NCBI RefSeq assembly: GCF_018070565.1
Contig: NZ_JAGPXL010000002.1
Coordinates: 186,001 to 250,000, forward strand
DNA: 64,000 nt
Direction: 5' to 3'
From: Streptomyces sp. B93
GTDB lineage: Bacteria > Actinomycetota > Actinomycetes > Streptomycetales > Streptomycetaceae
Part shown: positions 50,704 through 54,619 of the stretch, piece after piece
Numbering within the stretch: position 1 is the first letter of the stretch
Layout of the letters: each line of letters starts with the position of its first letter
Translations under genes and position numbers: made by a program
The notes under the pieces: model-generated
The model's database searches: none
What the model was told of the DNA's origin: nothing
The model's input: only the letters and a program-made list of their open reading frames with translations

Positions 50704-50731
50704 TACCCATGGGTATGACGCGACTTAGAGT
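50704..50731 (+). promoter_or_regulatory. Candidate promoter and operator of the redox module
   Basis: TAGAGT (50726-50731) is a good -10 box. The perfect palindrome TACCCATGGGTA (50704-50715) covers the place of the -35 box, where no TTGAC-like hexamer is seen. A regulator bound here would control the two redox genes. Confidence 0.5.
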
Positions 50732-50775
50732 GCGGCACCGGGACCGCTTTCCCGATACCGCTCGGAGTTGCCCCC

Positions 50776-50853
50776 ATGAATCCTCCTCGCAGTACCCGCC
50801 CCCTCCCCCAACGGGGCACATCGCCCGTCGTCAGCTGGGGAGGCCTGTCATGA
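50776..50853 (+). CDS. Possible 25-residue upstream ORF coupled to the redox module
   Basis: A short frame with GGAG 8 nt upstream runs from ATG 50776 and ends in a TGA that overlaps the ATG of the membrane cytochrome gene (ATGA). The peptide (MNPPRSTRPLPQRGTSPVVS and five more residues) is Pro/Arg-rich. It may be a translated leader that controls the next gene, or chance. Confidence 0.35.
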   Translation: MNPPRSTRPLPQRGTSPVVSWGGLS

Positions 50854-52049
50854 CGACGGACAGCACGGTCGACGACCGGGTCGTGGAGTACCTCAACTTC
50901 GGCGTGGGCGTCCTGTCGCTCGTGTGCCTGACCTGCTCGGTGATCTGGGGTCTGGTCGCCCAGGACCGGATCCTGCTCGACGCCCGCCGCCGCATCCTGG
51001 CGCAGGCGGTGCACCGGACCACCGCGCTCGCCTCGCTGGTCTTCCTGGTCGTGCACATCGTGGTCAAGCTGCTGCTGGACCACACGACCTGGATCGCCGT
51101 GGTGATCCCCTTCGGCCTCGCCCTCACCGACGACGAGGTCGCCACCGGCCGGGCCTTCCTGATCGGCCTGGGCACGCTGGCCGGCCTGCTGATGGTCTTC
51201 GTGGCCATCACCGGTCTGGTGCGCAACCGGTTCGCCTCCCCGGCGCCCGTCGCGGCCCGCTGGCGGGCCGTGCACATGCTGGCCTACCCGGCCTGGTGCG
51301 CGGGCCTGGTCCACGGGCTCTACGCGGGTCGAGCGGCCGCGCCGCTGTTCACGACCCTGTACGCCCTGTCCGTCGTCGCCGTCGGCGGCGCCCTCGCGCT
51401 GCGCGCGGCGCCCCGCCCGGTCAAGCGCAGGGTCGCCGACAAGATCACCGCGCTGCTCAGCACCGAGCAGCAGCCGGGCCGCGAGGAACTGGACGCCAGC
51501 CGGGCCCGGGCCACGGCCGAGTCCGCGCTGCCCGGCTACGAGAGCGCCCCAGCCGGACGGGGCGACCGGCGGGCCGAGGCCCCCATGGCGACCCCCGCCG
51601 AGACCACGAACGGCTTCGCCGCCGCCTACCGGGCCGTGTCGCGCCCGGCACGCGCGCGTGAGGCGTCGTACGCCGACGACCGCACGGCCCCCATGGAGCT
51701 GCCCGACCTCCAGCCGACGCAGGCCGTCCCCCGCGTCGACACCGGCACCTCGGGCTCCTGGCCGGTCCCGTCCCCGCCGCCGGTCGGCGAGGCCCCGCCC
51801 TCCGCCTACGACCCGCTCCAGGACACCGGCTACAACATCCCGGCGTACGGCAGCCCGGCCCCCGCGGGGTACGGATCGAGTGATCTGTACGACACCGGTG
51901 AGACGAACACCCTCTACGGCACGTACAACACCAACGACACGTACGACAACAGCGGTCCCGCCACAGAAACACTCCCCGGTGCGTCCTACGACTTCGACGC
52001 ACCGGGTTCGGGCGAACCTTGGAACACGCCTTCCGGAGGCTTTAAGTGA
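50850..52049 (+). CDS. Ferric-reductase/NOX-like bis-heme membrane protein
   Basis: The 399-residue protein has about five or six membrane helices in residues 20-200. Four His residues have the spacing of bis-heme electron-transfer domains: His55 and His69 (HxxxxxxxxxxxxxH, 13 between) and His142 and His155 (12 between). This equals the heme-ligand spacing of NADPH oxidase and ferric reductase cores. A long tail (about residues 205-399) is rich in Pro, Tyr, Asp and Thr with repeated YGS/YNT/YD blocks and looks disordered. ATG 50850 has GGGGAGG 6 nt upstream. The stop overlaps the next gene's GTG. Confidence 0.75.
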   Translation: MTTDSTVDDRVVEYLNFGVGVLSLVCLTCSVIWGLVAQDRILLDARRRILAQAVHRTTALASLVFLVVHIVVKLLLDHTTWIAVVIPFGLALTDDEVATGRAFLIGLGTLAGLLMVFVAITGLVRNRFASPAPVAARWRAVHMLAYPAWCAGLVHGLYAGRAAAPLFTTLYALSVVAVGGALALRAAPRPVKRRVADKITALLSTEQQPGREELDASRARATAESALPGYESAPAGRGDRRAEAPMATPAETTNGFAAAYRAVSRPARAREASYADDRTAPMELPDLQPTQAVPRVDTGTSGSWPVPSPPPVGEAPPSAYDPLQDTGYNIPAYGSPAPAGYGSSDLYDTGETNTLYGTYNTNDTYDNSGPATETLPGASYDFDAPGSGEPWNTPSGGFK

Positions 52050-53659
52050 ACGAGGCCCTGCCCGACGTCCCAGAAGTCCGCGTGGTCGGCCTTCCGCAGC
52101 TCACGTCGGGCTTCGACCTTGTGGAACGACTCGATCTGCCCATGCACCTGAAGGTGCACGGGCCGCTCGAACCGATGGGCGGCGAGCAACTCGCGAAGCT
52201 CGCCGAGAACATCAGCCTGAAGGGCCGCGGCGGCGCGGGCTTCCCCTTCCACAAGAAGCTGCGCTCGGTCGCCGAATCGGCGATCAAGCGCGGCGTACGG
52301 CCGGTGGTGGTCGTCAACGGCAGTGAGGACGAACCGGCCTGCCGCAAGGACACGGTGCTCATCAACCGTGCCCCGCACCTGATCCTGGACGGCGCGCTGC
52401 TGTGCGCCGAGGCCCTGGGCGCCCGCACGCTGGTGGTGGGGGTCACCCGGGAGTCCACCCAGCGCTCGATGGAGGCGGCACTCGCCGAACGCGGTCTCAG
52501 CAACGGCCGTAGATCGGCGCTCCGCGCGCGCGTGCAGCGCAATCCGGTACGGATGGTCACCGGCGCCGCCGCCTCCCTCATCCGCTCGATCGACGGCGGC
52601 CCGGCCATCCCGCCGGGCCGCAAGATCAGCGCCTCCAAGAGCGGCGTCGGCGGCGCGCCCACCCTGCTGTCCAACGCGGAGACCTTCGCCCAACTGGCGA
52701 TCGCCGCCCGCATCGGCCCCGAGCGCTACGGCAACACCGGCCTGTACGACGAGCCGGGCACCGTCATGCTCACGGTCTCCGGCGCGGTCGCCCGCCCGAT
52801 GGTGCTCGAGGTGCCCACAGGGGTGCCGCTGCGCTACGTCCTCCAGCTGGCCGGCGCCCCGCCGGTACCGCAGGGCGTGCTCACCGGCGGCTACCACGGC
52901 AAGTGGATCGACGCGGCCACCGTCAACGAGGCGATCGTCTCCCGTAACTCCCTGGACGCCGTGGGCGGTTCGCTGGGCGCCGGGGCGATCCTGCCGATCA
53001 GTCAGGACACCTGCCCACTGGGCGAGTCCCTGCGGGTCGCCCAGTGGCTGGCGGAGGAGAGCGCGGGGCAGTGCGGCCCCTGCTACCTCGGTCTGCCCGC
53101 CGCCGCGCGCGGTCTGGAGGACATCCTCAACGGCGGCGGACCGGCCGCCCTGGAGGCGGTCAAGCAGGTCGCGAAGAACGTCAAGCGGCGCGGCGCCTGC
53201 TCGCACCCCGACGGCTCCGCGATGTTCCTGGAGTCGACGCTGAAGGCCTTCACCGACGACCTGGCCGCCCATGTCCTCGGCAACGGCTGCGGACGGCGCG
53301 TGACGGGCGTCCTGCCGCTCTTCGAGGGCGGCAGGGCCCCCACGGGCATCCCGGGCGGCGGCGAGTCCGAGGAGAACGGCCCCAGCCGCCAGAAGATCTA
53401 CGTCGACTGGACGCTGTGCCGGGGCCACGGCCTGTGCGCGGACATCCTCCCGGAGGTCTTCGAGCTGGGCGCGGACGGCTTCCCGACCGTGGCGCAGGCG
53501 TCGGTCCCGCGTTTCGCGGAGGCCAAGGCGATGCGGGCGGTGCGCCGCTGCCCGGCGCTCGCCCTGCGCATCGAGGAGGACACCCGGGCGCAGGAGAGCA
53601 CCCGCAGCAATCTGCCGGTCCTCTCGCAGGGGCGGGGACGCCGGGCCCTGGGCCGCTGA
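52046..53659 (+). CDS. NuoF-like flavo-iron-sulfur protein fused to a 3Fe-4S ferredoxin
   Basis: The 537-residue protein resembles the 51-kDa (NuoF) subunit of complex I. The FMN/NADH region has SLKGRGGAGFPFHKKL and VVNGSEDEPACRKD, and an SLBB domain follows. The iron-sulfur site reads ESAGQCGPC plus a later GACSHPDG, so the first Cys of the usual CxxCxxC is Ala. The last 80 residues are a ferredoxin of 3Fe-4S type: DWTLCRGHGLCADILPEVF and RRCPALA. It is coupled by GTGA to a bis-heme membrane protein, so it probably feeds electrons from NAD(P)H or another donor to the hemes. Confidence 0.82.
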   Translation: MNEALPDVPEVRVVGLPQLTSGFDLVERLDLPMHLKVHGPLEPMGGEQLAKLAENISLKGRGGAGFPFHKKLRSVAESAIKRGVRPVVVVNGSEDEPACRKDTVLINRAPHLILDGALLCAEALGARTLVVGVTRESTQRSMEAALAERGLSNGRRSALRARVQRNPVRMVTGAAASLIRSIDGGPAIPPGRKISASKSGVGGAPTLLSNAETFAQLAIAARIGPERYGNTGLYDEPGTVMLTVSGAVARPMVLEVPTGVPLRYVLQLAGAPPVPQGVLTGGYHGKWIDAATVNEAIVSRNSLDAVGGSLGAGAILPISQDTCPLGESLRVAQWLAEESAGQCGPCYLGLPAAARGLEDILNGGGPAALEAVKQVAKNVKRRGACSHPDGSAMFLESTLKAFTDDLAAHVLGNGCGRRVTGVLPLFEGGRAPTGIPGGGESEENGPSRQKIYVDWTLCRGHGLCADILPEVFELGADGFPTVAQASVPRFAEAKAMRAVRRCPALALRIEEDTRAQESTRSNLPVLSQGRGRRALGR

Positions 53660-53698: not shown

Positions 53699-53704
53699 CG
53701 CCTG

Positions 53705-53777
53705 TGGAGCTAAGGAGAATTGAACTCCTGACCTCCTGCATGCCATGCAGGCGCTCTACCAACTGAGCTATAGCCCC
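53705..53777 (-). tRNA. tRNA-Ala (anticodon GGC), copy 1
   Basis: The 73-nt gene reads GGGGCTATAGCTCAGTTGG at its 5' end. The acceptor stem has the G3-U70 wobble pair that identifies tRNA-Ala. The anticodon stem CCTGC/GCAGG encloses ATGGCAT, giving anticodon GGC. The T-arm is GGAGTTCAATTCTCC. CCA is not encoded. Confidence 0.97.
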
Positions 53778-53900: not shown

Positions 53901-54134
53901 TCAGGCCGTCACGAACGAGTAGAACCGCTTGAGCGTGCAGTGCTCCTCCAGCAGACGCCCGTAGATCGGTTCCCCCTCCAGTTCGCGGTAGGTCTCGATC
54001 GGGTCGCCCTTTATGATCAGCGCCCGCGCGCATTCCTCGCACCAGTACTGGTAGTCGGGGTTGACCGGCTCCATGTCGCGGACGATCGGCGTACCGCTGC
54101 CGCACCAGTCGCACTTCCGCCTGTGTGCACCCAT
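53901..54134 (-). CDS. Small zinc-ribbon protein
   Basis: The 77-residue protein has two CxxC pairs, CDWCGSG and WCEECARA, spaced as in a zinc ribbon. It continues with an acidic helix and a basic C-terminus (CTLKRFYSFVTA). No known family is recognised. It starts 3 nt after the stop of another small zinc-ribbon gene, so the two are a unit. Both lie between the two tRNA-Ala genes. Confidence 0.75.
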   Translation of the reverse strand: MGAHRRKCDWCGSGTPIVRDMEPVNPDYQYWCEECARALIIKGDPIETYRELEGEPIYGRLLEEHCTLKRFYSFVTA

Positions 54135-54537: not shown

Positions 54538-54546
54538 CACCGGGCG

Positions 54547-54619
54547 TGGAGCTAAGGAGAATTGAACTCCTGACCTCCTGCATGCCATGCAGGCGCTCTA
54601 CCAACTGAGCTATAGCCCC
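54547..54619 (-). tRNA. tRNA-Ala (anticodon GGC), copy 2
   Basis: The 73 nt are identical to the gene at 53705-53777, including anticodon GGC and the G3-U70 pair. Both are on the minus strand, 842 bp apart. Confidence 0.97.

Follow-up and report, generated by a model that had tools for sequence, protein, structure and literature searches.

A conserved Streptomyces gene pair joins a four-histidine membrane protein to a NuoF-ferredoxin fusion and probably encodes an electron exporter

How is a membrane protein with four histidines spaced as in the NADPH oxidases supplied with electrons when the usual flavin domain is missing from its chain, and where would those electrons go? The question is raised by two overlapping genes of Streptomyces sp. 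B93, P0001 and P0002, which lie on the forward strand of the 64,000-nucleotide stretch of DNA analyzed here (contig NZ_JAGPXL010000002.1, positions 186,001 to 250,000; hereafter the window). In this study, we show that the two genes form a real and conserved system whose pairing has been foreshadowed in print. We consider it probable that their products act as one electron exporter, in which electrons from NAD(P)H would pass through a predicted flavin, iron-sulfur sites and a ferredoxin to two predicted hemes and then to an acceptor outside. What is new is the split of this family into two branches, the switch from Asp to Arg at the outer face of the membrane protein, a peptide encoded upstream of apbE, and the DUF1996, DUF4142 and PF03640 neighbors. 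The features of the pair, in window coordinates, are the following.

50850..52049 (including stop), + strand: P0001, an MsrQ-like/ferric-reductase-type membrane protein that ends in a long disordered tail, which is predicted to lie in the cytosol
51012..51014, + strand: His55, predicted inner-heme ligand; invariant in alignment A3 (25 sequences), His in 140 of 141 rows with one gap
51054..51056, + strand: His69, predicted outer-heme ligand; invariant in A3, His in 140 of 141 rows with one gap
51273..51275, + strand: His142, predicted inner-heme ligand; invariant in A3, His in 139 of 141 rows
51312..51314, + strand: His155, predicted outer-heme ligand; invariant in A3, His in 140 of 141 rows with one gap
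51330..51332, + strand: Arg161, shortly past the outer His; the ApbE-linked branch has G-[T/S]-D or close to it there
52046..53659 (including stop), + strand: P0002, NuoF-like flavoprotein with a C-terminal fused ferredoxin
52211..52696, + strand: Nuo51 flavin mononucleotide (FMN)-binding domain, residues 56-217; PF01512 (Complex1_51K), expectation value (E) 1.1e-30, with a fold match
52565..52570, + strand: Ala174-Ala175 where E. coli NuoF has Glu182-Glu183, from the alignment with that protein
52769..52864, + strand: SLBB domain, residues 242-273; PF10531, E 1.5e-6
53033..53272, + strand: NADH_4Fe-4S domain with the N3-type cluster site; PF10589, E 9.3e-17; Cys343, Cys346 and Cys385, with Ala340 for the fourth Cys
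53396..53572, + strand: ferredoxin domain, residues 451-509, with Cys458, Cys464 and Cys502; PF13459 (Fer4_15), E 7.4e-15

The stop of P0001 and the GTG start of P0002 at 52046 overlap by GTGA (52046-52049), as a first-pass annotation of this DNA had read. The best start of P0001 (coding 50850-52046, 399 residues) is the ATG at 50850, preceded by GGGGAGG at 50837-50843, and a second in-frame ATG lies at 50709; GGAGG at 52035-52039 stands ahead of P0002 (coding 52046-53656, 537 residues). The four histidines of P0001 were correctly recognized by that annotation, with 13 residues between His55 and His69 and 12 between His142 and His155, which is the spacing of the NADPH oxidases (NOX). All four are kept in 137 of the 141 aligned membrane-protein relatives; the other four (L123, L125, L147 and L150) depart from this at one or two sites, by a gap or a different residue, for which we suspect truncation or frameshift. 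The model of P0001 has helices at residues 5-37, 45-76, 101-125, 132-159 (kinked), 165-186 and 189-225 and appears to resemble the membrane domains of STEAP and NADPH oxidase; this likeness and the retention of the histidines support the assignment to the four-His, ferric-reductase type. Because positive charges mark the stretches 38-50, 123-137 and 186-205, we would place the N-terminus outside and the tail inside, with His55 and His142 toward the cytosol and His69 and His155 toward the outside. The tail, which had also been noted before, spans residues 226-399, is rich in Ala, Pro, Gly, Thr, Ser, Asp and Tyr, and is mostly modeled at a predicted local distance difference test score below 50. 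The match to PF01794 (E 1.1e-4, 22.7 bits) falls under the curated cut-off of 28, which the ApbE-linked relatives L042 and L090 clear with 33.8 and 38.5 bits. P0001 is like NOX, STEAP and SpNOX in its four histidines at NOX spacing and, as it appears, in its predicted helix arrangement. However, in contrast to NOX proper it has no flavin/NADPH domain on its chain, a domain search having found no flavin adenine dinucleotide (FAD)/NAD domain in P0001, as expected from the earlier reading, and the NuoF-ferredoxin protein stands in its stead.

The product of P0002 is NuoF-like with an SLBB domain and a C-terminal ferredoxin, and here too the domain and fold matches agree with what had been read from the letters. 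Its best sequence and fold matches are NuoF, HydB, NfnB and related subunits, with which it shares the FMN and SLBB domains and the cluster region. It differs from NuoF in having three of the four N3 Cys, a Fer4_15-type ferredoxin and a score (160.9 bits) far below the cut-off of the NCBIfam NuoF equivalog (558.65); elsewhere the same genome has L002, a NuoF-like gene with a closer match (48%) to the E. coli protein. The loss of one N3 Cys was missed by the first-pass annotation. In the alignment with E. coli NuoF, which gave more than 300 residues for 138 of the 139 loci classed below, the position of E. coli C351 (Ala340 in P0002) is A in 129 rows, S in 8 and G in 1, and thus is without Cys in all 138; the next two Cys are present in 138 of 138 rows and the last in 137. 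The three-Cys N3-type site and the three-Cys ferredoxin suggest that both are 3Fe-4S clusters. Cys323, invariant in alignment A2 and absent from E. coli NuoF, was considered as a substitute N3 ligand and set aside as not a specific gain, because L002 also has Cys there and a 16-residue helix follows it.

As to the nucleotide site, the glycine loop, N91, E94, E96, D102 and N210 are retained in all 31 fused rows. In the window's clade, Ala replaces both Glu of the GEE motif; at E. coli position 183 the fused rows have A, G or S throughout (31/31) and 59 of 85 ApbE rows have Glu, and position 182 is Glu in 21 of the 31 fused rows. The Phe at E. coli position 203, which we assume to stack on the adenine, is replaced in 31/31 fused rows. 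A preference for NADPH through the loss of Glu183, a residue for which mutants of E. coli NuoF have reportedly been studied, was an attractive explanation; a literature search gave nothing in its support, and it was not adopted. The nicotinamide side of P0002 seems able to work, and the remaining nucleotide site is altered. In Aquifex aeolicus NuoF the NADH contacts include E95, E97, D103 and E184 (PMC6560083, excerpts); by motif, E94, E96 and D102 match the first three, and E184 has no counterpart in the window's clade.

Relatives of P0001 were found in 58 of 396 genomes of the phylum (E ≤ 1e-3), and relatives of P0002 in 126 of 394 genomes of the class (E ≤ 1e-50) and in 151 of 199 Streptomyces genomes sampled (E ≤ 1e-60), where the weakest matches, with E around 1e-76, could belong to the ApbE type. 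Nine ApbE-type sequences, used as queries against named genomes, matched at least 595 stretches, at least 526 of them encoding relatives, and the best 80 were taken; together with the window, 18 regions out of another set of 32 and a further 40, these make up 139 loci classed by script, among which the same species may occur twice. In 86 of them apbE lies on the same strand within 6 kilobases, accompanied by a separate ferredoxin gene in 85 and the membrane gene in 84, usually in the order apbE, membrane, NuoF-like, ferredoxin (L116 differs). Another 33, including the window, have the fused ferredoxin (31 by script; L189 and L204, scored by the script as lacking a ferredoxin, by tree); in no case does apbE lie that close on the same strand, and the membrane gene adjoins in all except L195. 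The remaining 20 have neither apbE nor a fused ferredoxin, and several of these lie at contig ends. The pairing thus extends well beyond this strain, which the first-pass annotation had left to be checked. The fused form is also found in other families of the class, which rules out its being limited to Streptomyces.

On a quickly built tree with 89 rows (24 of the 31 script-scored fused loci, 42 ApbE-linked and 21 others, rooted on two NuoF proteins), the NuoF-like family is one clade, with a support of 100 in the Shimodaira-Hasegawa-like approximate likelihood ratio test. The fused rows with L189, L204 and L209 make a clade of 27 (support 100) nested inside the ApbE-linked rows, with ApbE-linked L214 and L216 as its sister (support 95); L209 sits on a very long branch (1.53) and was not counted as fused. 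Because of this nesting, the fusion of the ferredoxin and the loss of apbE look derived and single, and apbE with a separate ferredoxin gene would be the older form of the paired system. The label "fused" requires four changes on the tree because the script scored L189 and L204 as lacking a ferredoxin though both lie in the fused clade. In one Streptomyces genome a P0002 relative was matched in two pieces (G246:C1:186093-187215) and is likely a decayed copy. A basal NuoF-like branch (L218, L219, L220 and L224) has a ferredoxin hit and other enzyme genes, among them a Rieske oxygenase in L220, and no membrane gene.

In the electron exporter that we favor, NAD(P)H would give electrons to the predicted flavin of P0002, from which they would move through the remaining three-Cys iron-sulfur site to the fused ferredoxin. 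The ferredoxin would then reduce the predicted inner heme of P0001, and the electrons would continue by way of the outer heme to an acceptor outside the membrane. The transfer from the NuoF-like part to the ferredoxin is supported because the two are fused here and adjacent genes elsewhere, and because the basal loci have both and no membrane gene. The ferredoxin relay proposed in the first-pass annotation gains support from the separate gene that follows the NuoF-like gene in relatives.

That annotation knew of no described enzyme with this composition, which is not borne out. Excerpts of the survey by Meheust et al. (2021; PMC8238504) describe 31 flavinylation clusters in which an MsrQ-like protein occurs together with a NuoF-like one and for which NAD(P)H is the proposed donor, and MsrQ-like flavinylation systems with a PF01794 membrane protein and two predicted heme sites, which are common in Actinobacteria. 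The window is like these in its four-His membrane protein with a NuoF-like partner, but differs in the fused ferredoxin, in the Arg that replaces the outer-face Asp, and in having no match to apbE or FMN_bind on its contig. According to the same excerpts, the survey covered five genes on each side and required an apbE, FMN-binding, DUF3570 or DUF2271 signal, and the window's branch would therefore be missed. An experimental paper on the pair was not found in the literature searched, in part by way of guessed S. coelicolor locus tags. The genome's own matches to apbE (PF02424) and FMN_bind (PF04205) lie on contigs C24 and C44, none being found on the window's contig C47 (DUF2271 and DUF3570 were not searched). 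The C24 and C44 clusters (L073 and L074) are like the window in having predicted heme membrane reductases. However, they have ApbE nearby, membrane genes of 469 and 460 residues with, judged by eye, a flavin/NAD part of their own, and a Pfam-recognized FMN_bind protein. It is possible for these ApbE proteins to act on the window's pair in trans, but both are accompanied by an FMN_bind protein and a membrane reductase other than P0001, and this explanation was not retained.

The extracytosolic half of the system, ApbE and a putative flavin peptide in the larger branch and absent here, was also missed by the first-pass annotation. Upstream of apbE, the ApbE-linked loci encode a small protein that begins with a charged N-terminus and continues through a single hydrophobic stretch and a low-complexity linker to an ApbE-like motif at the stop codon. 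Among the 80 ApbE loci with at least 400 nucleotides upstream (6 of the 86 were excluded), 40 have a C-terminal end of exactly [ST]G[AG][ST], as in L117 (8039-8419), L122, L131, L140, L079 and L091, and 4 have a relaxed form; in 15 a Cys-bracketed Ser-Gly loop ends the small protein (L044, L050, L052, L101, L141, L151 and others). The remaining 21 gave no scored peptide; some of these end in TGGS, TSGS or SSGS and failed the filter or pattern, and L103, L115, L116, L136 and more end otherwise. In the same loci, 970 control open reading frames that also encode a hydrophobic stretch gave 2 strict motifs, 9 relaxed ones including the strict, and no loop, and the strict motif recurs in 37 of the 73 loci added after the pattern was first noticed. 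The ApbE motif is Dxx[S/T]GA[S/T], of which seven residues suffice and which as a tag works best at a terminus (PMC12052999, excerpts). The Asp of this seven-residue form is also present in 12 of the 40 strict peptides, whose third motif place is Ala in 15 and Gly in the rest. At E ≤ 0.01, Pfam gave one weak match among 20 aligned peptides, and no FMN_bind carrier was found near any of the 86 loci by tblastn, a search of limited sensitivity for which this genome supplied the two queries. The outside carrier of the ApbE branch is probably a disordered peptide that is anchored in the membrane and bears FMN on its C-terminal residue, and these small proteins are a possible domain-free class of ApbE substrate. 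In the flavinylation literature searched, which comprised open-licence papers and included the excerpts of PMC8238504, a domain-free membrane-anchored carrier was not found. The ApbE proteins of these loci are, by eye, without a signal peptide, and so is the ApbE of cluster C44 beside its FMN_bind protein; a missing signal peptide is therefore no argument against export of the substrate. A second small protein ending in a run of Asp occurs near the peptide in L041, L043, L045, L051 and L066.

The two branches also differ at the outer face of the membrane protein. At the position of Arg161, all 32 fused-branch proteins have Arg (read G-R), and Asp is found in 83 of 84 ApbE-linked proteins (one row is empty), in 11 of 11 with no apbE nearby and in 13 of 14 with no NuoF-like gene. 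The other exception is L063 (G352), a Streptomyces membrane paralogue with the G-R motif, near which no NuoF-like match was found in the stretch examined. The switch fits a changed outside partner, and because the ferredoxin is fused, apbE is missing and Arg replaces Asp, the partner of the window's branch probably differs from that of the ApbE branch. Among the 23 fused loci that are not beside what we take, by eye, to be leuS, the stretch examined holds DUF1996 in 20, DUF4142 in 18, PF03640 in 14 and an extracytoplasmic function (ECF) sigma factor in 10, compared with 0, 0, 0 and 1 in the 86 ApbE loci. The family names were taken from Pfam on one locus and secretion was judged by eye. Since they lie near the pair in most of these loci, the secreted-looking DUF1996, DUF4142 and PF03640 proteins are the best candidates for the partner. 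None of the four families was found among the 20 other loci or the 10 leuS-type loci, to which the window belongs, and the window's partner would therefore be a small molecule or the product of a gene located elsewhere; outside this locus, the genome has a single PF03640 protein, which contains four repeats, and two matches to DUF1996. The ECF sigma factor stands by the fused pair with DUF1996/DUF4142 in L188-L193, L197-L199 and L202, and some of these loci also have a small gene that, by eye, may encode an anti-sigma factor. By eye, a CcdA-like gene follows the pair in L037 and L186, and L037 also has a secreted thioredoxin-like gene.

The pair is divergent from leuS, with a tRNA-Ala gene downstream; two tRNA-Ala (GGC) genes lie 0.8 kilobases apart, at 53704-53777 and 54546-54619 (- strand). 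A 77-residue protein with CxxC pairs is encoded at 53901-54134 (- strand), and its family recurs in 10 loci, all of leuS type.

Other explanations of the pair have to be weighed against export to a dedicated partner. The absence of the candidate partner genes from all 10 loci of the window's type, and the apparent likeness of the predicted fold to the membrane domains of STEAP and NOX, would suit an oxidase or metal reductase whose outer heme passes electrons straight to O2, Fe(III) or Cu(II), with no outside protein. This deserves serious attention, but we doubt it, as DUF1996 and DUF4142 accompany 20 and 18 of the 23 fused loci away from leuS and the sister branch has an apparent dedicated outside carrier. 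Were the hemes instead supplied with electrons by menaquinol, like those of MsrQ and superoxide oxidase, P0002 would serve other, soluble acceptors and the two genes would be merely co-regulated; however, membrane and NuoF-like genes stay adjacent in 32 of the 33 fused loci and are associated in 84 of 86 ApbE loci, which exceeds what co-regulation alone would lead one to expect, and we regard this reading as unlikely.

The changes in P0002 itself raise the question of whether it is still an NAD(P)H enzyme. One N3 Cys is lost in every aligned row and Glu183 and Phe203 (E. coli numbering) are replaced in every fused row, which would be in line with a protein that only relays electrons from another cytosolic donor. 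However, the nucleotide-site residues retained in the same rows, including the three that match NADH contacts of A. aeolicus NuoF by motif (PMC6560083, excerpts), speak against this, and we hold it to be quite unlikely. The direction of flow could also be inward, with an outside donor reducing the hemes and P0002 making NAD(P)H or reduced ferredoxin. Flavoproteins of the NuoF type can run in both directions, as do the bifurcating relatives HydB and NfnB, which are top matches of P0002. Yet a low potential would be required of the outside donor, and no recurrent extra subunit of a redox pump was noticed among the gene families of the fused loci, only some of which were identified; inward flow is therefore very improbable.

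Returning to electron export, we tentatively propose that the pair belongs to a modular actinobacterial exporter whose outside end has been swapped. The older branch would use a disordered peptide whose terminal Ser or Thr carries FMN, and the Streptomyces branch, which has a fused ferredoxin, lacks ApbE and shows Arg where the older one has Asp, would use DUF1996, DUF4142 and PF03640 proteins as acceptors. If this is true, about three quarters of the Streptomyces sampled (151 of 199) would have a heme-and-flavin electron exporter, three uncharacterized families, DUF1996, DUF4142 and PF03640, would be tied to a defined redox source, and the sister branch would offer an apparent domain-free class of ApbE substrate.

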